Below, piece after piece: positions 21,208 to 64,000 of a stretch of 64,000 nt of DNA (the first letter of the stretch is position 1; each line of letters begins with the position of its first letter). The notes below the pieces were generated by a model. That model saw only the letters and a program-made list of their open reading frames with translations, was not told where the DNA came from and ran no database searches. This DNA is from an uncultured Bacteroidota bacterium (GTDB taxonomy: Bacteria > Bacteroidota > Bacteroidia > NS11-12g > UBA9320). The stretch covers positions 62,001-126,000 of the forward strand of contig CAKZLB010000039.1 of the NCBI GenBank assembly GCA_937124965.1. Reading direction: 5' to 3'. The position numbers were made by a program, and so were the translations under genes.

Positions 21208-24200
21208 ATGATACGTAATTTTATACTTATTGCATTAGCACTTTGCAGTTTTTCAGAAATCTACGCTCAAGACACTACTTGGGTTAATACATTAAACTTT
21301 TCGGACATCACCAAAAGACGTGGAACATACTCATTTCCAGAAGGTAAGACGTATCGGAAGATAAAAATGCATTACACACTGAAATGCGACCCAGCTACGA
21401 CAAGAGACAACTTTAACTGTGGAGAGTGGGATTATTTGTCGTATGCCATAGTTCATGACAGTACAGGCAGAATTGATAGCAACGAATACGAGCACAGTAA
21501 TTTTATGATTGGTGACCTTGCTCCTACTTCGTTTGATTATGTGAATAATTCACATGCTGATACGTTTTATAGGTACGATAAGTTCCGAGTTGTGAGCAAT
21601 GTAACTACATCAGATTCCATTGTTTTAGGAGCAGGAAATAACTCAAGCTCTGAAAGCATTGAAGAGAATCGTGTCCAATACATTTACACTGCCGCTGAAT
21701 TAATTGCAGCAGGGTTGAAGCCAGGCGAAATAACAGGATTATCTTTTTTCGTTAATAAGCTCTCAGTTACGATTCCAAATTTTAGGGTAAGAATTACACA
21801 AACACCGTTGTCAAGCTTGTCAGGATTGTATCGAGGAGCAATGAATACCGTTTTTTATGGTGATTTTGATGGAAAGTTGGGTAAAAATAGAATCCAGTCA
21901 CTAGAGCCGTTATTATGGGACGGTGCTTCAAACTTGATTGTTGAGTTTAGCCGTTCGGAAGCAGTGTTGCCGAGCTACTTGGAATTACAAACAGATGTCT
22001 CATTAACAAATGGTATTTCAGAAGTAGGGTCAGATAAGTATTATGAAATATCAAACAACAATTTCATGGAAATCCAAGACCCAGAGACTGTTTTTAAAGA
22101 TATTGATTCCGCAATCTCAATTAGTTTTTGGGCAAAAGGGGATGAATCTCTACCCAAAAATACTTCAGTTCTTGAAGCAAAAGACAAAGATGGCAAACGG
22201 TTATTGAATATCCATTTCCCTTGGAGTAATGGTCAAGTGTATTGGGACGCTGGAAATTCATCGGGCTATGATAGAATAAACAAGGCTGTAGATGAAAGCG
22301 TTTACAAAAACAGTTGGAATCACTGGGTTTTTACGAAAAACGTCCGAACTGGATCGTTAAAGATCTATGTGAATGGTAAATTGTTTCATAGCGGAACTGG
22401 ATTAACCAGAGAATTGGGGAATAACATTGCAACTTTCAGAATCGGAAAAGGAATTACAAATTATCAGTATGAAGGGAGTATAGATCGTTTAAGTGTTTGG
22501 AAATCTGAACTATCCGAAACTGAAATTGGAGACTTACACTCCAAAGATATTGTAACTACTCAACCGAATTTTGCTCAGTTAATTTGTGCTTTTGGTTTTG
22601 ATAGCTATTCAAATACGGCAAACTTAGCTTCAGATTTCAACTCTGCAATTACCGCTCAATTTAAAGGAAAAACGGTTGTTAATACCTACGCAGAATCGGC
22701 ATTTTTTAATACAAAAGTTGCGCAAGAGCGTCCACGACTTGAGTTTGTTTCTTCTGACCAAACTTCATACATAGACTCAGCAATGCGATTTGATGTAATT
22801 TATAGGTCGAATACATTTATTGATCTTTTTGAGGATGACAAGCAGCCAACAGTGCAGACTGGTGTGATGTCAACTTTCGAAGGTGGATTTGCCTATAGCT
22901 ACAATCCTGATGGTTCGAAAAAAGATTCAACAGCAATTTCCGGAAGCCAAGTGTTGCAACAAAAAATGACGAAGTATTACATACCATACGAAGTTGTGAA
23001 TAATGTAGAAATTGCACGATACATAACTCCATATGGTATAGGACTAGATTTAGGTCCTGATGGGTTTAAATGGGTGTATGATGTGACGGATTATGCATCC
23101 TTATTGGAAGGGGAGGTAACATTATCTGCAGGGAATCAACAAGAGTTAATCGACTTGCGATTTGAAATGATTGAAGGAACACCAGTGAGAGATCTAAAAG
23201 AAATTTCATATTACATTAACCGTGAAAGCAGATCTTATAGAAATATCGCTGACAATGTCAATTTTCAAGAAATGGAGATTGACATCAATCCTGAAGCAAA
23301 AACACATAAGTTAGTTACCAGAATTACGGGTCATGGGCATAACACTGATGATGACACGAAACCACATTGCTGCGAATGGGCTGACAAAAAGCATTACTTA
23401 AAAGTTGATGGCAAAGATGCTCTTGAATGGGACATTTGGCAAGACGATAAATGTGCATTGAATCCAGTATTTGATCAAGGAGGTAATTGGGCTCCACCAA
23501 GAGCTGGCTGGTGTCCAGGGGCGCCTGTGGATGATTATAATTTCGACATCACAGCGTTTGTTACTGGTGATAAAGTGTCGTTAGATTATGAGATAGAGCC
23601 AGTGCCAACAACTAACCTGGGACAAGGTGGTGGAAACTACGTGGTGTCAATGCATTTAATGCAATACGGCGATTATAACTTCCTAAACGATGCAACTGTC
23701 GAGGAGATAGTTAGCCCCAATAACTGGGAGTATTATTTACGACAGAACCCAACATGCGGTAAGCCAAAAATTAAAGTTCGGAACACAGGGAAAAATGTAA
23801 TCACCGAACTTGGGCTGAAATACGGAGTGGTTGGAGGAAACCCAATTACATATTACTGGAAAGATACATTACAACAAGATGAGGCGAAAGTGATTGAATT
23901 ACCCTTTGCTATTTGGGATTATTTGAGTGAAGAAAATAGCAACCGGTTTTTTGCTGAAGTATTTGCTGTAAACAAAGTGAATGATGAGTATGCAGATAAC
24001 AATCGAGCAGAATCAGAATTTGAGATTCCAAACATGGCCCCTAAAACATTCACAGTTTATTTTAGAAATAACAAAATTGCCGATGCTACTCTTCAAATAT
24101 TTGACGATGGTGGAAACGCGGTATACGAGCAACTCACGGCACCTGCAGAACAATTAATTAAAGAAGACATTACATTAAATCCAGGGTGCTATAAACTCGT

Positions 24201-24627
24201 TTGTAAAACGGAAAATGAGTTTGGTTTGTCTTATCCATTGATACCTCAAATTGGTTCTGGTTTGTTAAGACTAATCAAGTCTGGAACTAGTTTTAATGAG
24301 TCATTCAATCCTGACTTTGGAAAGAGTATTGAATATTACTTTACAGTTGGATACACGCTTTCGGAAGAGAATGTAACGCATGAGAATTGGAAACTTTATC
24401 CAAACCCAAGTTCTGGCTTAGTAACTCTTCAAAAGAATGTGGCGTCTGAAGGCAATGTCTATCAGGTCATAGTTTACAATGTCTCTGGTCAAGTTGTTTT
24501 GGAGCAAAATAACACCATACATGGAGGTATAGTTGAGTTGGATCTGTGTGATATGAAGGCAGGCATGTACTTCGTTGAAATGATTGAGAACAATCAAAAA
24601 ACATCGTTTAAAGTATCGAAATATTAA
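21208..24627 (+). CDS. Secreted PNGase F-like protein with LamG domain and type IX sorting signal
   Basis: A signal peptide (cleavage near YAQ, residue 21) leads into an N-glycanase N-domain-like segment containing CGEWD (71-75). A concanavalin/LamG domain spans about residues 280-450 (ISISFWAKGDE, NSWNHWVFTKN, KIYVNGKLF, GSIDRLSVWKSEL). A PNGase F C-domain-like region lies near 694-830: ITGHGHN, a CCEWADKKHYLKV strand pair, CALNP, and NWAPPRAGWCPGAPV. The last ~80 residues are a Por secretion tail (NWKLYPNPSSGLVTL ... GMYFVEM). This suggests a type IX-secreted glycoamidase removing N-glycans, or a binding protein of the same fold; catalytic residues would need alignment. The LamG insert is not part of the classic enzyme. 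Confidence 0.8.
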   Translation: MIRNFILIALALCSFSEIYAQDTTWVNTLNFSDITKRRGTYSFPEGKTYRKIKMHYTLKCDPATTRDNFNCGEWDYLSYAIVHDSTGRIDSNEYEHSNFMIGDLAPTSFDYVNNSHADTFYRYDKFRVVSNVTTSDSIVLGAGNNSSSESIEENRVQYIYTAAELIAAGLKPGEITGLSFFVNKLSVTIPNFRVRITQTPLSSLSGLYRGAMNTVFYGDFDGKLGKNRIQSLEPLLWDGASNLIVEFSRSEAVLPSYLELQTDVSLTNGISEVGSDKYYEISNNNFMEIQDPETVFKDIDSAISISFWAKGDESLPKNTSVLEAKDKDGKRLLNIHFPWSNGQVYWDAGNSSGYDRINKAVDESVYKNSWNHWVFTKNVRTGSLKIYVNGKLFHSGTGLTRELGNNIATFRIGKGITNYQYEGSIDRLSVWKSELSETEIGDLHSKDIVTTQPNFAQLICAFGFDSYSNTANLASDFNSAITAQFKGKTVVNTYAESAFFNTKVAQERPRLEFVSSDQTSYIDSAMRFDVIYRSNTFIDLFEDDKQPTVQTGVMSTFEGGFAYSYNPDGSKKDSTAISGSQVLQQKMTKYYIPYEVVNNVEIARYITPYGIGLDLGPDGFKWVYDVTDYASLLEGEVTLSAGNQQELIDLRFEMIEGTPVRDLKEISYYINRESRSYRNIADNVNFQEMEIDINPEAKTHKLVTRITGHGHNTDDDTKPHCCEWADKKHYLKVDGKDALEWDIWQDDKCALNPVFDQGGNWAPPRAGWCPGAPVDDYNFDITAFVTGDKVSLDYEIEPVPTTNLGQGGGNYVVSMHLMQYGDYNFLNDATVEEIVSPNNWEYYLRQNPTCGKPKIKVRNTGKNVITELGLKYGVVGGNPITYYWKDTLQQDEAKVIELPFAIWDYLSEENSNRFFAEVFAVNKVNDEYADNNRAESEFEIPNMAPKTFTVYFRNNKIADATLQIFDDGGNAVYEQLTAPAEQLIKEDITLNPGCYKLVCKTENEFGLSYPLIPQIGSGLLRLIKSGTSFNESFNPDFGKSIEYYFTVGYTLSEENVTHENWKLYPNPSSGLVTLQKNVASEGNVYQVIVYNVSGQVVLEQNNTIHGGIVELDLCDMKAGMYFVEMIENNQKTSFKVSKY

Positions 24628-24630
24628 ACG

Positions 24631-25383
24631 TTGACCATAACTAAGAAACTGTACTTTGCATCTGACTTCCATTTAGGGATTCCCAATTATGCCAAAAGTT
24701 TAGAGAGAGAAAAAAGAATTATCCGTTGGTTAGGCCAAGTATCTAATGATGCGGAAAAAATCTTTTTGATGGGTGATATCTTTGACTTTTGGTACGAGTA
24801 TAAAAAGGTTGTACCAAAAGGCTTCGTTAGACTTCAAGGCAAAATTGCAGAATTAACTGACCGAGGAATTGAGGTTTATTTTTTCAAAGGAAACCACGAC
24901 ATGTGGATGTTCTCTTACTTTCAGAATGAACTAGGAATTAAGCTTGTTTCGGACGAACTTGAACTTAGTCACGGAGGGAAATCGTTCTATTTACACCATG
25001 GTGATGGGTTAGGTGATGGTGACTACAGTTACAAGTTTTTAAAACGAGTATTTAGAAATCCTATTTGCATAAAACTTTTCGGATTCATACCGAGTCGAAT
25101 TGGATTGGGAGTCGCCCATTACTTCTCGTCAAAAAGTCGGTTAGCAAATGCAGAAGCGGATGAAATTTTTAATGAAGATTCGGAATGGTTGTTGCAATTC
25201 TGTAATGACAAGGTGAAAACGAAGCCCTACGATTACATGATCTTTGGTCACCGTCATTTACCATTAGATATTAAACTTGACAATGGAGGGCGTTACATCA
25301 ACTTGGGCGAATGGATTCACCATAATACCTATGCCGTATTTGATGGAAATTCATTAACTTTAGAAACATTTGAAAAGGAATAA
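24631..25383 (+). CDS. lpxH: UDP-2,3-diacylglucosamine diphosphatase-like metallophosphoesterase (LpxH type)
   Basis: The calcineurin-like metal-binding motifs are complete: DFHLG, GDIFDFW, GNHD, HHGDG and GHRH. The order and the GDIFDFWYEY and HHGDGLGDGDY contexts fit the LpxH group of lipid A synthesis, which removes UMP from UDP-2,3-diacylglucosamine at the inner membrane. No in-frame ATG exists near the beginning, so the TTG three bases after the PNGase F-like stop is the likely start. Its stop overlaps the following gene by 14 bp. The 250-residue length is normal for Bacteroidota members. Confidence 0.83.
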   Translation: MTITKKLYFASDFHLGIPNYAKSLEREKRIIRWLGQVSNDAEKIFLMGDIFDFWYEYKKVVPKGFVRLQGKIAELTDRGIEVYFFKGNHDMWMFSYFQNELGIKLVSDELELSHGGKSFYLHHGDGLGDGDYSYKFLKRVFRNPICIKLFGFIPSRIGLGVAHYFSSKSRLANAEADEIFNEDSEWLLQFCNDKVKTKPYDYMIFGHRHLPLDIKLDNGGRYINLGEWIHHNTYAVFDGNSLTLETFEKE

Positions 25384-27030: not shown

Positions 27031-27882
27031 ATGAAAAAAAAGTTCCTTCTTTTAATCCTAATGATAGTTGAAGTGAGTTGTTTAAATGCTCAAACGATTA
27101 TTAATAATTCAAGCTTTTTGTTTATTGGTTATAGTTCAACTCAGGGACCTCCAAACGATCGCTGGGCGGAAATTGATGAATTAACCATTTCAAAAATTAC
27201 GTCAAACGATACTTTTTTTACAATTGGAGATTCAAAATATGTAAAATCAGGAACAAAGTCATTCATGATACAAGACACTGATACGTTTCTCATGTTTGAC
27301 GAAGCTTTAAAGAAAGGAGACTCCTTATTTACGTTTAATGACGCAATTTCAATTTCTGTTGTGGTCGATAGTGTAAAACAAATCAAGCTTCATAATGGCA
27401 AATACTATAAACATTGGTACTTGAATGATTTGCAATCTTCCGGCACTCTGTATGTTTGGATTGAAAGCCTCGGTGAAAGGCATATGGGATGGCGATTTTT
27501 ATCAGATATAAAAAAGTTACACCTCCCAAGTTTAGCTGCCGTTTGTCAAAATGATGATATTACACATTGGGATTCCTCTTTGTCTAAATACGGAAACAAA
27601 GCATTGTCTCAAACCTGTAATTTTGATTCAATTTCTCAAGTCTTATCCGTAAGTCAATTAACTATTAAGCCTCAATTGTTGTATCCCAATCCCGTTCAAA
27701 ATTTTTTAACGATAGACTCAATAGCCGCCATCAACTATTCAATCGTTGATATTAATGGAAATACGAGATTAGAAGGTCGTTATGCCCATCCTATCGACGT
27801 TTCAAGTCTTAAACAAGGAATATATTTTGTAACCTTAACGTCGAGGGATAAGTCAGCTATTTATAGAATTCTAAAGAAGTAA
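27031..27882 (+). CDS. Hypothetical type IX-secreted protein
   Basis: A signal peptide ends at LNAQ (residue 21). The middle part, about 22-205, is a beta-rich region I cannot assign, with a pair of cysteines (AVCQNDD and SQTCNFDS). The last ~70 residues are a Por/type A sorting domain (LLYPNPVQNFLTIDS ... QGIYFVTLTSRD). So it is likely exported and then handled by the type IX system represented by SprA at the right of the window. It overlaps the next gene by one base (TAATG), so it is probably co-translated with the thioredoxin-like lipoprotein. Confidence 0.65.
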   Translation: MKKKFLLLILMIVEVSCLNAQTIINNSSFLFIGYSSTQGPPNDRWAEIDELTISKITSNDTFFTIGDSKYVKSGTKSFMIQDTDTFLMFDEALKKGDSLFTFNDAISISVVVDSVKQIKLHNGKYYKHWYLNDLQSSGTLYVWIESLGERHMGWRFLSDIKKLHLPSLAAVCQNDDITHWDSSLSKYGNKALSQTCNFDSISQVLSVSQLTIKPQLLYPNPVQNFLTIDSIAAINYSIVDINGNTRLEGRYAHPIDVSSLKQGIYFVTLTSRDKSAIYRILKK

Positions 27883-59098: not shown

Positions 59099-60052
59099 CC
59101 AATTAAAAAGTCATTTGGGCCTTTTCTCAAAATTCATATTGCCGTATTCCTCTTTGGATTTACAGCTATATTGGGGAAGTTCATTCAATTTAACCAACTC
59201 GAATTGGTTTGGCATCGACTATGGATTGGAGTCTTGGGTTTACTAGTAATTCCAAAAGTCATTCGAGGTGTATTCAAGATTCCTAAAGGTACTATGATGG
59301 TGTACGCAGGAATCGGAGTTATAGTCTGTCTTCACTGGGTGGCGTTTTTTGGAAGTATCAAATTGGGTAATGCAAGTATTGCACTGTCTTGTATGGCTAC
59401 AACTACTTTATTTATTGCGTTTCTCGAACCGATTATTACAAAGTCTAAGTTTAATTGGGTCGAAATGATTTTAGGTCTTCTCGTGATAATTGGTATAGTT
59501 TTAATCTTGAATGTAGGGGCAGTTTTTTATTCTTCAATACTTACTGGTTTAATTGCAGCATTTTTAGCGGCTTTATTTTCGACATTCAATAAAAAATATA
59601 TCGGGAGTAACAATAGCATGTCAGTGTCAGCTATTGAGCTTGCTTCTGGCTTTATATTTTTAACATTAATATTTGGAGTTTTTAAAGAGACAAGCTTCCA
59701 GTCATTATCACTTTTTAGAAGTGATTTAGTTTCTGATTACGCTCTTTTTGGTTATAATATCCACTCTTTTTGGTATTTAATTGTACTTGGGTTTCTATGT
59801 ACATCAATAGCATACGCATTAGCATTGTCTTCTTTAAAAAATATTTCCGCATTTAGCGCTGGTCTTGCAGTTAACCTTGAACCTATCTATGGTGTGGCAA
59901 TGGCAATACTTATTTTTCACGAAAATGAGGATTTAAACCTTTCGTTTTATATCGGAACTAGCTTAATCTTATTGTCTGTCTTCATTCACCCTGTAGCATT
60001 GAAATGGATGAGCAAAAGACAGTCACGCTTATTGCAGAGTATATCTAAGTGA
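59096..60052 (+). CDS. EamA/DMT family transporter
   Basis: About ten membrane helices in two EamA halves: IHIAVFLFGFTAILGKFIQ, LHWVAFFGSIKLGNASIAL and FLEPIITKSKFNW in the first, and ALALSSLKNISAFSAGLAVNLEPIYGVAMAI in the second, the standard drug/metabolite transporter layout. The substrate is unknown. The ATG at 59096 begins MPIKKSFGPF and leaves the first helix intact; an upstream TTG (59069) would only add a short basic tail. The 3' end overlaps the convergent sprA gene by 24 bp. Confidence 0.85.
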   Translation: MPIKKSFGPFLKIHIAVFLFGFTAILGKFIQFNQLELVWHRLWIGVLGLLVIPKVIRGVFKIPKGTMMVYAGIGVIVCLHWVAFFGSIKLGNASIALSCMATTTLFIAFLEPIITKSKFNWVEMILGLLVIIGIVLILNVGAVFYSSILTGLIAAFLAALFSTFNKKYIGSNNSMSVSAIELASGFIFLTLIFGVFKETSFQSLSLFRSDLVSDYALFGYNIHSFWYLIVLGFLCTSIAYALALSSLKNISAFSAGLAVNLEPIYGVAMAILIFHENEDLNLSFYIGTSLILLSVFIHPVALKWMSKRQSRLLQSISK

Positions 60053-63000
60053 AACGCCAAAGTCAGTTATAGCCGAGTTGAAGCTTTGAGAGTTTTTAGG
60101 TTCTGTTAATGTTCGATTATAGAACATCCTCAAGTTCGTATTGTCGTTAACTTTATAATCAATATTAGGTTTTATCGAAAAAATTCGATTACCAGCTTGA
60201 GCAGTGTTGGATCCAGATTCTATTTCTCGTCGTATTGTTACTCCATCTCGAATGGATAAATCAAAACGGAAATTCAAGTTATTTTCTAAATAGATTTTTG
60301 ATCCACGATACTTAATAGGAAGACGCACTCCTTTGGTTACAAAACCAGCTCCTATCACCCATTCTTTGTTGCGCTGTTCTATTAATTGATAGGTATTCAT
60401 GAACATCGTGATGTTTCTATCACGTTTGTGCTCAAGCTTCAATGTTAGACCATTCTTCATAGTTACATCTACACCCAAAACTGGAGTTAATCGCTCAATT
60501 AACGAAACACCCTGCTGAAAAGTAAACTGTGAAGTTAAGTTGTTAGTGTCGTTGACCAAATCATCCACGCCATAAGATAATTCGCTGTAGTAACTATTTA
60601 GATTTAAGGTTGAACTATAGGCATGCTGAATGCTAATATTTGTAAAGTGTTTTTTCAAACCAAATAAATCCTTTAAGCCATTATAGCTTACTTGCCAAGA
60701 TGGGGCGGGCATTCTCTTGAATGGGTTCAGTGAGATACTCTTAGCATCTTTACCACTATACGCAGCTAAAAATGAATATAGCATTACGTCTTGATGAGTC
60801 TGATTGTATCCAACTGGGAACGCTGTGTTTGGGTTCAAATCACCTATTCTATCAGCATATCGTGAGTTGGTAGTGGTAAATTCCTGTTCTTGTAGTCTAG
60901 TTGCTATGTCTTTTCTATTTTCTTTAAATGCGTCGAATACGTCAGAACTGTAGTTTTGAGTTACGTCTCCAAGTTTATCGAAAGCAGACGCCCACGAGAA
61001 AAATGATATGGTATATTGACCTACTTCTTGCAAGCCAAGATCAACAAAGTCTTGTTGTCCTTCGTCATATCTAAAATTACTTGAAACCGTGTTACTCGTC
61101 CGTTTCGTGAAATTTAAGGTAATTCTAAAATTGTTAAACGGTTCTAAAGTAGCGCTTGCAGATAGATTTTGAGCACTTAATTCCATAAACCGGTTATTCT
61201 GTGCCGTATCATTGGTCATATAACCATTCCGTGCTAAATCATAACGAATATTAGGGTCTTGAATCCCCATGATAAATGCCCAACTTGGAGTAGCTAAATC
61301 AAAGTTGCGACCTAAATATTGAATGTCTTGATTGAACCCAGGAAGTGTTGTCCCATTCGTCTCTGTATAAGTTATTTGCGCCTGTTTTAACATTAATAAA
61401 AATGCGCCTATTCCTTTTGCCGCTGGAGATAACCCTTCTTTTTTCTTTTTCTTCGACGGATCAGCGTCCTCGTCGTCAGGTGTTGTAGTTTTTGTTGACT
61501 TTTTTCTATTGCGATTCGTTCTTGTAACAAATGGTCGAAGTTTTTTATTTCTGTTATAAAAAGAAGTAAAATTCATTCTCCCATTTAATGTGATCGTTTG
61601 ACTATTTTGGATCGTATTACCAAGTGAAGGGAAGGTGGGTGGAGCAGTAGTCCAACTATAATTTGCGGCATATTTGGCAGAAGCGGTAATCCAACTTAAA
61701 CTTCTAATTTTACTAAATGGTAAGGTATAATTCAAATCCATTACCTGATTGAAATTACGCAGCGTTCCAAAGTTGAAAAAATTGTTTCGAATGGAATCTT
61801 CTTTAGCTTCTGTGTCTATTTCGCCAAATGGCTCTTCTACCCACGCGTCTGCTACACTATTATAGTTAAACTTCAAGTTTCTTGTGAAATTCCATCGTCC
61901 GCCATAGGTCCGTTTCAATGTGAAAGATTTGTCGTAAAACCTTGGAACAATAGCTTCAAAATCATCATTACTCCTGTTTTGCATTTCACCATATCGCCTG
62001 TCTACGTCAAACTGAAAATTCAAGCTACTTGGCATCAAAGTGAAATTGAAGTCTTTTATCAAATTGATTTTATTTGATCGTATTAACTTTTTGAAAGGCT
62101 CCCAAGGTTTAGGCCTATTTGCATAGGTATACGCTAAACTCGCTCTATGCGTGTTGATGAAGTTTTCTTCTACTATTTGATTCCGTCTAAATACTCTTTG
62201 GTAGGAGTATGATGCGTTTAAATTCTCAACGTCAAATAGACCTACTTTACCCCCTCCAGTTCTGTTCTTTTTAACATTAGTAAAATTGAGACTATATCGA
62301 CTTGTGTAGTCCTGGCTTGTTTCCTTTATTTTGGTCCTGTCTTCTGCTGTTTCTGCTGCATCAAGTACTTGTTTGTACAAGATGTCTGGATTCAACGGGT
62401 AATATTTTGGATTAATAAAGTTTTCATTCCATCCTATAAACATTGGGATAGATATTCCTGTTTTTTGAGGAAAAAACTTCCCAAGTTCAAGGTTAGCTGA
62501 TATGTCATATTGGAAAGTCTGATCTAGACTTCGTTCATTTAACGTCTTATCTATTCCTCCGAAACCAATTGTAGTGTAGTTGCCAGAAACATTAACACGA
62601 GCGAAATCAGCAAGTTTAGTAACCATTCGTGCAGTGGCAGCCCAACCACCCTTGTTAGCAATTCCTGTTACACGCATTTCATTAAACCATACTTCGCTAC
62701 AAAGTTTTTCTGGTCCTGTCCCTCCTGATGGATTTAAAACACCAAGCATTAGAGTTCGTACCTGACTTAAATCAGGTAATCCAACAACGCGTAAAATATG
62801 ACCTTTTCCATTTGTAGTTTCATAATTAGCAGTTTTCGAACCTGTCGCTTTTTCTCGTTCAATTTTTAAATTATAGAAATCCTCTAGTTCGAATTCCATA
62901 TTATTGGTGGATGGCCAAATTTCATCTTGCAAAACAGCACCAGCACCTGTAATTTGAAGTGGCATTTGGTACTCGTAATAGTTGTTTTCTAAGTCAGTAC

Positions 63001-64000
63001 CTATTCGTACAAAAGCCCAAACATCTCCATTCTGTAGATTTTCACCTTCAGCATGTAAAAACATCTTAAACGCTTTGTAATTTCGGATATCGACTTCTGT
63101 GACTCTAAACGCTCCCCTAGCATCGCCTTTTTCGAGATCACACACTCTTAACGATAAGGACTGTTCGTTCTGTAAAACTTGATTCGGTTGCGTAGCGTCT
63201 ATTTCTCTCGTAATTCCAGGAGGTTCTACGTACTTTACTGGAACTCTAGAGCTATTTTCTTCAATATTTACTGTACTAACTACAAATTCAACCGGATCAT
63301 TAGGGTCTGGTGGTAAGCCAATAGTAGGCGGATATTTTAAACTATTCTGATACCTTCTCCAATCAGCCCGAATCATACGCATTTCAAGTAATCGAACAAT
63401 TACGCTATCCTCAAAACCAGTCATGAACATTCGCATAAATCGAATAGACTTAAAATTGCTTATTCCTCCGACACGTTTTTGATATTCTCGAATGGGAATT
63501 TTTAACTGGTAATATGTTACACTATCCGGTTTTGCGCCTTCGTCTTCTCTGGTTGCAAACACACGTATTGAATCCGCTACATATCCTTTACCTACAACTA
63601 AGTCGCGCTGACTAAGATCTATTTTATATTGAAAATATTCCTCGATCTGATCTAATGTATTGTCTTGGTTTATATCTTCATCATCAGGGAACGTAGTATT
63701 TGCTTTAGGAGTTCCGTCAGGTAACCGATCTAAATTTGAGTTGCCTTCTGGTTGCTTGTAATACAAGTAACGATGTAAAACACTGGTTTCATTGGCGTCG
63801 TATTGTTCGTCTCGGTGATGAATGAAATTATCGCCAGATGGGTCTTGAATTGCATTGTTGTATGCAATGGAATTAACACCAAACTTATTTCTAATGCCTT
63901 GAATGTAGGTGGTGTCGTAGAAGCCTAACTCTAACTCGTCACTTAATCCGTCCAAACCAACGTCTTGAAGTGGTCGCGCATTTGGATCGTTATCAAACCC
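60029..64000 (-). CDS. sprA: SprA, type IX secretion outer-membrane translocon protein (C-terminal part, cut at window edge)
   Basis: SprA forms the large outer-membrane channel of the type IX secretion system and is needed for gliding. The minus-strand frame stays open past the right edge, so at least 1,300 residues of the C-terminal part are seen; the family is about 2,400 residues. NDPNARPLQDVG right at the edge, the EKLCSEVWFNEMRVTGI motif (near 62690), and the long series of amphipathic beta-strands that ends in SAITDFGVSLRYTLQ identify it. The acidic/lysine run near 61440-61510 (DPSKKKKKEG) is a flexible loop. A TTG at 63955 is internal and not the start. Confidence 0.92.
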   Translation of the reverse strand, partial: GFDNDPNARPLQDVGLDGLSDELELGFYDTTYIQGIRNKFGVNSIAYNNAIQDPSGDNFIHHRDEQYDANETSVLHRYLYYKQPEGNSNLDRLPDGTPKANTTFPDDEDINQDNTLDQIEEYFQYKIDLSQRDLVVGKGYVADSIRVFATREDEGAKPDSVTYYQLKIPIREYQKRVGGISNFKSIRFMRMFMTGFEDSVIVRLLEMRMIRADWRRYQNSLKYPPTIGLPPDPNDPVEFVVSTVNIEENSSRVPVKYVEPPGITREIDATQPNQVLQNEQSLSLRVCDLEKGDARGAFRVTEVDIRNYKAFKMFLHAEGENLQNGDVWAFVRIGTDLENNYYEYQMPLQITGAGAVLQDEIWPSTNNMEFELEDFYNLKIEREKATGSKTANYETTNGKGHILRVVGLPDLSQVRTLMLGVLNPSGGTGPEKLCSEVWFNEMRVTGIANKGGWAATARMVTKLADFARVNVSGNYTTIGFGGIDKTLNERSLDQTFQYDISANLELGKFFPQKTGISIPMFIGWNENFINPKYYPLNPDILYKQVLDAAETAEDRTKIKETSQDYTSRYSLNFTNVKKNRTGGGKVGLFDVENLNASYSYQRVFRRNQIVEENFINTHRASLAYTYANRPKPWEPFKKLIRSNKINLIKDFNFTLMPSSLNFQFDVDRRYGEMQNRSNDDFEAIVPRFYDKSFTLKRTYGGRWNFTRNLKFNYNSVADAWVEEPFGEIDTEAKEDSIRNNFFNFGTLRNFNQVMDLNYTLPFSKIRSLSWITASAKYAANYSWTTAPPTFPSLGNTIQNSQTITLNGRMNFTSFYNRNKKLRPFVTRTNRNRKKSTKTTTPDDEDADPSKKKKKEGLSPAAKGIGAFLLMLKQAQITYTETNGTTLPGFNQDIQYLGRNFDLATPSWAFIMGIQDPNIRYDLARNGYMTNDTAQNNRFMELSAQNLSASATLEPFNNFRITLNFTKRTSNTVSSNFRYDEGQQDFVDLGLQEVGQYTISFFSWASAFDKLGDVTQNYSSDVFDAFKENRKDIATRLQEQEFTTTNSRYADRIGDLNPNTAFPVGYNQTHQDVMLYSFLAAYSGKDAKSISLNPFKRMPAPSWQVSYNGLKDLFGLKKHFTNISIQHAYSSTLNLNSYYSELSYGVDDLVNDTNNLTSQFTFQQGVSLIERLTPVLGVDVTMKNGLTLKLEHKRDRNITMFMNTYQLIEQRNKEWVIGAGFVTKGVRLPIKYRGSKIYLENNLNFRFDLSIRDGVTIRREIESGSNTAQAGNRIFSIKPNIDYKVNDNTNLRMFYNRTLTEPKNSQSFNSAITDFGVSLRYTLQ

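Follow-up and report, generated by a model that had tools for sequence, protein, structure and literature searches.

A putative type IX-secreted N-glycanase with domains nested in its catalytic core, from an uncultured Bacteroidota bacterium

What is to be made of a PNGase F-type core interrupted, within its N-terminal half, by about 500 residues of other domains? The question is posed by a gene in a stretch of 64,000 nucleotides ('the window'; contig CAKZLB010000039.1, positions 62,001 to 126,000) from an uncultured Bacteroidota bacterium. An earlier note had taken its product for an N-glycan removing, PNGase F-like protein with an inserted LamG domain and a type IX sorting tail. The reading favored here, reasonably likely in our judgment from sequence comparison and a structural model, is that of a peptide:N-glycanase (PNGase) of the PNGase F superfamily exported by the type IX secretion system (T9SS). 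Conservation among relatives and the predicted fold point to a real, conserved and probably active protein.

Core, catalytic residues and export

The gene is laid out as follows, residue numbers being those of the protein.

21208..24627, forward strand: open reading frame of 1139 amino acids for a PNGase F-like T9SS cargo protein that carries a nested LamG insert
21208..21267, forward: presumed signal peptide, residues 1-20 (ending IYA, then Q), from reading of the sequence and a model helix at 3-18
21274..21498, forward: PNGase N domain, part 1, residues 23-97, from the N-core profile and a model-1pnf alignment that starts at residue 18
21430..21432, forward: D75, equivalent of PNGase F catalytic D60 (alignment to PNGase F)
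21499..21618, forward: outer beta module, half 1, residues 98-137, from model strands; the module stands alone in L122-L126
21619..22023, forward: jelly roll resembling a carbohydrate-binding module (CBM), about residues 138-272; no Pfam match, middling structural Z
22027..22710, forward: LamG/pentraxin-like domain, residues 274-501, from PF13385 and the LamG region of PAPP-A (Z 21.4)
22726..22977, forward: outer beta module, half 2, residues 507-590, from the model and intermediate forms
22999..23187, forward: PNGase N domain, part 2, residues 598-660, from a partial Pfam match, PNGase F alignment and model superposition
23143..23145, forward: E646, a few residues past the PNGase F E118 place (alignment)
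23188..23679, forward: PNGase C domain, residues 661-824, from PF09113, PNGase F alignment and model superposition
23332..23334, forward: H709, pairing with PNGase F W191 (alignment)
23374..23376, forward: E723, equivalent of PNGase F catalytic E206 (alignment)
23500..23502, forward: R765, equivalent of PNGase F R248 (alignment)
23680..24381, forward: beta-rich linker modules, residues 825-1058; the 'mid' profile matches long, intermediate and short forms
24394..24621, forward: T9SS type A sorting domain, residues 1063-1138, from TIGR04183 and PF18962

By sequence, the best relative in the PDB is PNGase F itself (1pnf, E 1.8e-19), and a family profile both strengthens this match (E 4.5e-40) and finds Ngly2, PNGF-II and 7zgn. 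An AlphaFold2 model was built on an alignment, A3, of 68 rows with the window protein first, 59 of the rows being long forms, i.e. with the full insert. Its mean pLDDT (predicted local distance difference test) is 88.2 and its predicted template modelling score 0.61, and it superposes on 1pnf with Z 27.2 and a root-mean-square deviation of 3.1 over 285 aligned residues (model residues 18 to 824). The core also superposes on Ngly2 (Z 25.7), PNGF-II (23.5) and 7zgn (23.3). In the model, a double jelly-roll fold of the PNGase F type spans both N and C domains. Of the two domains named earlier, the C domain is detected by Pfam (N-glycanase_C, PF09113, residues 677-817, E 8e-14, 52.1 bits against a cut-off of 25), but the N domain is recovered through the model, N-glycanase_N (PF09112) reaching just 16.9 bits, under its cut-off of 22.4, over residues 594-639 only. 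The insert splits this domain, and with the profile match partial and sub-threshold, assignment to the superfamily is based on fold and residues.

The active site of PNGase F consists of D60 and E206, with W59, R61 and W191 as chitobiose contacts, and in Ngly2 the residues corresponding to D60 and E206 are essential (excerpt of PMC12753239, as throughout). In the alignment with PNGase F the pairs are D60/D75, E206/E723 and R248/R765. D75, E723, R765, W768 and H709 are each present in 68/68 rows of A3, and E646 in 62/68. A second set comprised 80 long-form loci, the best 80 of at least 578 stretches encoding relatives; there E723, R765, W768, H709, Q645 and E646 are each in all 80 and D75 in 79, the exception being a gap in L116. 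The earlier note had proposed alignment for the catalytic Asp and Glu, whose loss it regarded as fatal to its reading; no such loss is seen. PNGase F (from Elizabethkingia, type I; 1pnf, 1png, 3pms) shares with the window protein the double jelly-roll core and the D60, E206, R248 and W251 places. The distinct clade proposed further below would have an active-site signature of its own: WDY, (G/H)NxQE where PNGase F has TETW, and TGH where PNGase F has SGW.

The sorting tail was correctly recognized at the outset: TIGR04183 scores 55.1 bits against an NCBIfam cut-off of 23, and Por_Secre_tail 57.6 bits against a Pfam cut-off of 27 (residues 1063-1135, E 1.5e-15). SprA, also encoded in the window (1173.9 bits, cut-off 200), is evidence of a T9SS in the genome, and the protein is predicted to be T9SS type A cargo. 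The SprA translocon gene, near the window end (60029-63955, reverse strand), is represented by its C-terminal part (model positions 1004-2319).

On this basis a route from substrate to nutrient may be sketched. Signal peptide and T9SS would bring the enzyme to the cell surface or into the medium, where its Asp/Glu pair would hydrolyze the amide bond between N-acetylglucosamine and Asn in glycoproteins of eukaryotes (algae or protists). By keeping hold of substrate or of a particle surface, the jelly roll and LamG domain, placed in the core beyond the strand next after the catalytic Asp, may assist the enzyme. Proteases could then attack the stripped protein, and it is the amino acids, not the glycan set free, that the organism would use. 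The chemistry is proposed because of the invariant residues and the fold, export because of the sorting tail, and the binding role of the insert because of domain type only.

The nested insert

A LamG domain does lie inside the core, as had been noticed. However, the insert is larger than the earlier description allowed, an outer beta module enclosing both a CBM-like jelly roll and the LamG/pentraxin-like domain. It extends over about residues 98-590, within the N-terminal half of the core; in the model it is entered after the strand at 77-97, the next one past the catalytic Asp, and the core resumes with the strand at 587-606. By PF13385 (Laminin_G_3, residues 294-440, E 4.2e-18, 66.4 bits against a Pfam cut-off of 27.6) and by predicted fold, the second of the two enclosed domains is a LamG/concanavalin-like domain. 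Residues 274-501 superpose on LamG and pentraxin domains, with a Z of 21.4 for PAPP-A (8d8o and others), although identity to PAPP-A is just 15%.

The jelly roll is less readily placed. A separate model of residues 118-285 is a beta jelly roll with a pLDDT of 85.3, for which Foldseek gave no PDB match at E <= 0.001, and the best VIA-align Z is 9.9, the matches including phage baseplate and fibre proteins, an esterase CBM and Eph-type folds. Because there is no Foldseek match and the VIA-align scores are middling, no family is claimed for it. The jelly-roll part of the profile also matches other large proteins of the phylum (in G425, G218, G415, G095 and G422), and it therefore looks like a mobile module. 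Among the 59 long rows, mean pairwise identity is 0.51 and 0.46 for the core, against 0.35 for LamG, 0.28 for the jelly roll and 0.20 and 0.25 for the outer module.

Comparison with characterized relatives brings out the organization. The solved chains of PNGase F have no such insert, no linker modules and no T9SS tail. PNGF-II (4r4z) and the Bacteroides massiliensis type II PNGase (7zgn) have the core fold in common with the window protein and likewise lack Glu at the E118 place. However, in type II enzymes an N-terminal bowl-like domain precedes the core (excerpt of PMC9522356, as below), whereas here the extra domains are inside it: the core alignment starts at residue 21 of the model but at residue 183 of the 4r4z chain, and therefore no domain precedes the core of the window protein. 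Zebrafish Ngly2, an acid PNGase (9lwg), shares the core fold, the catalytic Asp and Glu and altered sugar-contact residues, but it is lysosomal and eukaryotic and its protease-associated and thioredoxin-like domains are outside the PNGase domain (PMC12753239). The Group 1 Bacteroides PNGases (3ks7, 4qhb; Z 22.5 and 22.1) also share the core fold, but are described as having only a small beta insert between the two sheets, with the E118 place occupied by Asp (PMC9522356). PNGase F structures are on record as having loops and insertions, e.g. in 3ks7 a 60-residue region with an extended hairpin (excerpt of PMC8812541). Among the papers listed in a search of the open-licence PMC literature there was no description of a PNGase with nested jelly roll and LamG, which does not show that the architecture is unpublished. 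Known bacterial PNGases beyond those of Elizabethkingia and gut Bacteroides include PNGase L (Flavobacterium) and PNGase H+ (Terriglobus roseus) (PMC12753239).

Substrate and competing readings

Several features weigh against simple equation with PNGase F. The window protein differs from it at R61, E118, W120 and W191. At the R61 place stands Y76, with Y in 67 of the 68 rows of A3 and T in one; H709, invariant as noted, replaces the chitobiose contact W191. Glu118, by which type I is recognized, is absent, the residue pairing there being A641 in a gapped and alignment-dependent stretch. By the same alignment-dependent pairing, 73 of the 80 long-form loci have A at the E118 place, 5 have S and 2 have G, and all 80 have Q645 and E646 downstream of it; outside the window protein as a whole it is occupied by A, S, G, D, N, T or other residues. 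Insert-free relatives keep the core, from which it follows that the core does not depend on the insert for its function. Also, PNGase-type genes could mean a different substrate where the six glycan-utilization families discussed below are not found.

These features are the attraction of the rival with most weight, somewhat unlikely as it seems to us: a PNGase-fold amidase with the same Asp/Glu chemistry and a reshaped sugar site, for which chitobiose-type mammalian N-glycans would be poor substrates, and e.g. core alpha-1,3-fucosylated or unusual algal glycans the proper ones. Type II PNGases, with Gly at the E118 place, give room in this way to core alpha-1,3-fucose (PMC9522356). Yet Ngly2 is an active PNGase with His at two of three chitobiose-contact places (PMC12753239), and the E118 pairing that favors the rival depends on a gapped sequence alignment. 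Part of the comparison is internal to the genome, which encodes a second, canonical PNGase F-like protein (L002, 353 aa) with the same core and catalytic residues, no insert, and both E118 (in IETW) and W191 kept. Since it too departs from R61, having V there, that change alone says little. A non-catalytic surface adhesin, with the PNGase fold as glycan-binding platform and LamG and jelly roll as further binding domains, would suit the two inserted domains of binding type, and a published comparison of structures places the single jelly rolls of PNGase F in among CBMs (PMC8812541). It is nevertheless improbable: D75 and E723 are invariant in A3, for which reason a pseudoenzyme is judged unlikely, and the core is better conserved than the insert. 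That the fusion of domains is an artefact of annotation or assembly is hardly credible. The partial match of the Pfam N domain might be so taken, but the same domain order recurs in the 59 long rows of A3 and in uninterrupted reading frames of many separate assemblies. Artefact and insertion of mobile DNA were both rejected, there being no step in base composition, the gene having among repeats of 16 nucleotides or more only imperfect pairs of 16-22 nucleotides, and homologous inserts being found in many separate assemblies.

With these alternatives in view, the T9SS-exported N-glycanase is still preferred, though the plainer notion of a PNGase F with a LamG added is only partly supported, being weakened by the altered sugar contacts, the nested multi-domain insert, the insert-free relatives and the six families not found. 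The last concerns feeding. In the organism's own genome GH92, GH18, GH20, GH29 and GH130 (glycoside hydrolase families) and SusD_RagB are without match at E <= 0.001, a result limited to those six (GH85, GH38, GH33, GH125, GH2 and other SusD models were not searched); a TonB-barrel search gave 15 places. With none of the six found, protein feeding would fit better than glycan feeding. Cultivated Cryomorphaceae are somewhat fastidious, with a requirement for amino acids and vitamins (excerpt of PMC7214798); that the window organism is near to them is a guess, and their nutrition gives weak support to protein feeding.

A bolder proposal, tentative and in our view rather doubtful, is that of a distinct PNGase type. 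The protein would belong to a widespread T9SS-secreted clade (Bacteroidota, Ignavibacteria, Kapabacteria, Chlorobiota) with its own signature, reshaped for non-mammalian glycans (e.g. core alpha-1,3-fucosylated algal or protist N-glycans). The catalytic domain of this clade would have acquired an outer beta module with jelly roll and LamG nested in it, and the enzymes would be used in feeding on glycoprotein and not on glycans. If so, deglycosylating enzymes of other specificities might be drawn from a large environmental clade of secreted PNGase-type proteins that keep the catalytic pair, have altered sugar contacts and carry binding domains within the catalytic domain; the T9SS might be linked to use of algal glycoprotein nitrogen, and there would be a test case for a catalytic domain gaining and dropping a 500-residue insert.

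Distribution, gain and loss of the insert, and neighboring genes

Relatives come in three forms: one of about 650 aa that lacks the insert, one of about 755-890 aa that has just the outer module, and one that has the full insert. Among 39 near genomes, own included, every one has some match and 36 have the PNGase family and linker block by domain profiles; the weak matches of G011, G025 and G037 (best E 6.9e-6 to 2.2e-5) are all that those genomes have. The long form is in 15 of the 39, broken in G004 and cut by a contig end in G003, G023, G034 and G035. The insert-free form is in 21, mostly of about 640-690 aa (the G012 copy is cut by a contig end). More widely, 392 genomes were drawn evenly from the phylum, with two candidates scored in each so that counts are lower bounds; at least 63 have a match at E <= 1e-25. 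In at least 22 (own included) the match to the long profile begins no later than residue 9 and ends no earlier than 1039, and some of the remainder of the 63 match just its LamG, jelly-roll or linker parts.

The insert was to be sought in relatives, and it is readily found there. Of the long-form loci, 80/80 are matched by the jelly-roll, LamG and C-domain profiles, 79/80 by the N-core profile and 77/80 by the tail profile, these being profiles that share rows with the set (they were built from an alignment holding many of them). Taxa named for these loci are Flavobacteriales, Crocinitomicaceae, Bacteroidales, Chitinophagales, Saprospiraceae, Ignavibacteria, Kapaibacterium and Chlorobiota; almost all the loci are from metagenome-assembled genomes, and some species names are doubtful. 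One locus, L092, is recorded as from a strain, Crocinitomix algicola. In Ignavibacteria and Kapaibacterium (L076, L085, L095) long forms reach about 1260 aa, and at the C-terminus of L076 there is an under-cut-off match to FlgD_ig and no Por_Secre_tail match listed. G003 carries, besides the orthologue, a diverged long-form paralogue with 32% identity to the window protein (L039:710-3466, forward strand, cut by a contig end). In G004 the orthologue (L040/L006) is in three reading frames around the jelly-roll region, with a TAG within the middle piece, from a decayed gene or an assembly error.

Five proteins of about 755-890 aa (L122-L126, two cut by the fetched stretch) have the outer module but no jelly roll and no LamG; the latter two therefore sit inside an insert that can also exist by itself. 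A quick tree of 69 rows, with the organism's own canonical PNGase as its root, puts the long forms in one 62-row clade (support 99) that also holds the short rows L010, L018 and L019, and the long state requires three changes. A second tree, of 73 rows with the intermediates and two outgroups, has them in a clade of 54 (support 94) but places one long form, L140, beside intermediates L122 and L123 (support 99); the remaining three intermediates branch with short forms, and four changes are required. These trees are consistent with a single main gain followed by loss of the insert in L010, in the group of L018 and L019, and perhaps in L122/L123. At least two losses, one of them at a syntenic locus, are likely. 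The neighbors of the insert-free L010 match those of the window gene, at 60% identity for the LpxH-like gene downstream and 41% over 82 aa for the HHH-domain gene upstream, and the same locus therefore occurs in both states. There may instead have been a second gain or the opposite order of events, as the outgroup branches of the second tree are long and meet, and counts of changes cannot separate gain from loss. Stepwise gain with the outer module first is attractive in view of the intermediates, but may not be what took place; in the second tree L140 groups with two of them and four changes are needed.

A second, different lectin-PNGase build is predicted from the sequence of L130:377-2650 (reverse strand, G166), in which a fucolectin-like F5/8 type C domain stands at the N-terminus of a 758-aa protein that has a PNGase F-like core and a T9SS tail. 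Its core motifs are WDR, DTW and TGHGWD, and an immunoglobulin-like match is under cut-off.

Next to the window gene, 3 bp downstream, is the following neighbor.

24631..25383, forward strand: LpxH-like metallophosphatase (PF12850)

LpxH models score under their curated cut-offs on it (104.4 against 134; 81.5 against 190.35), and an LpxH-like gene adjoins the PNGase gene in 8 genomes among the loci examined (G000-G005, G007, G009). A scan gave 15 promoter-like sites where 14.2 were expected and 3 terminator-like sites where 2.1 were expected, neither of them a noteworthy result. A few genes downstream, positions 27031-27882 encode another T9SS type A cargo protein, a small one (283 aa).

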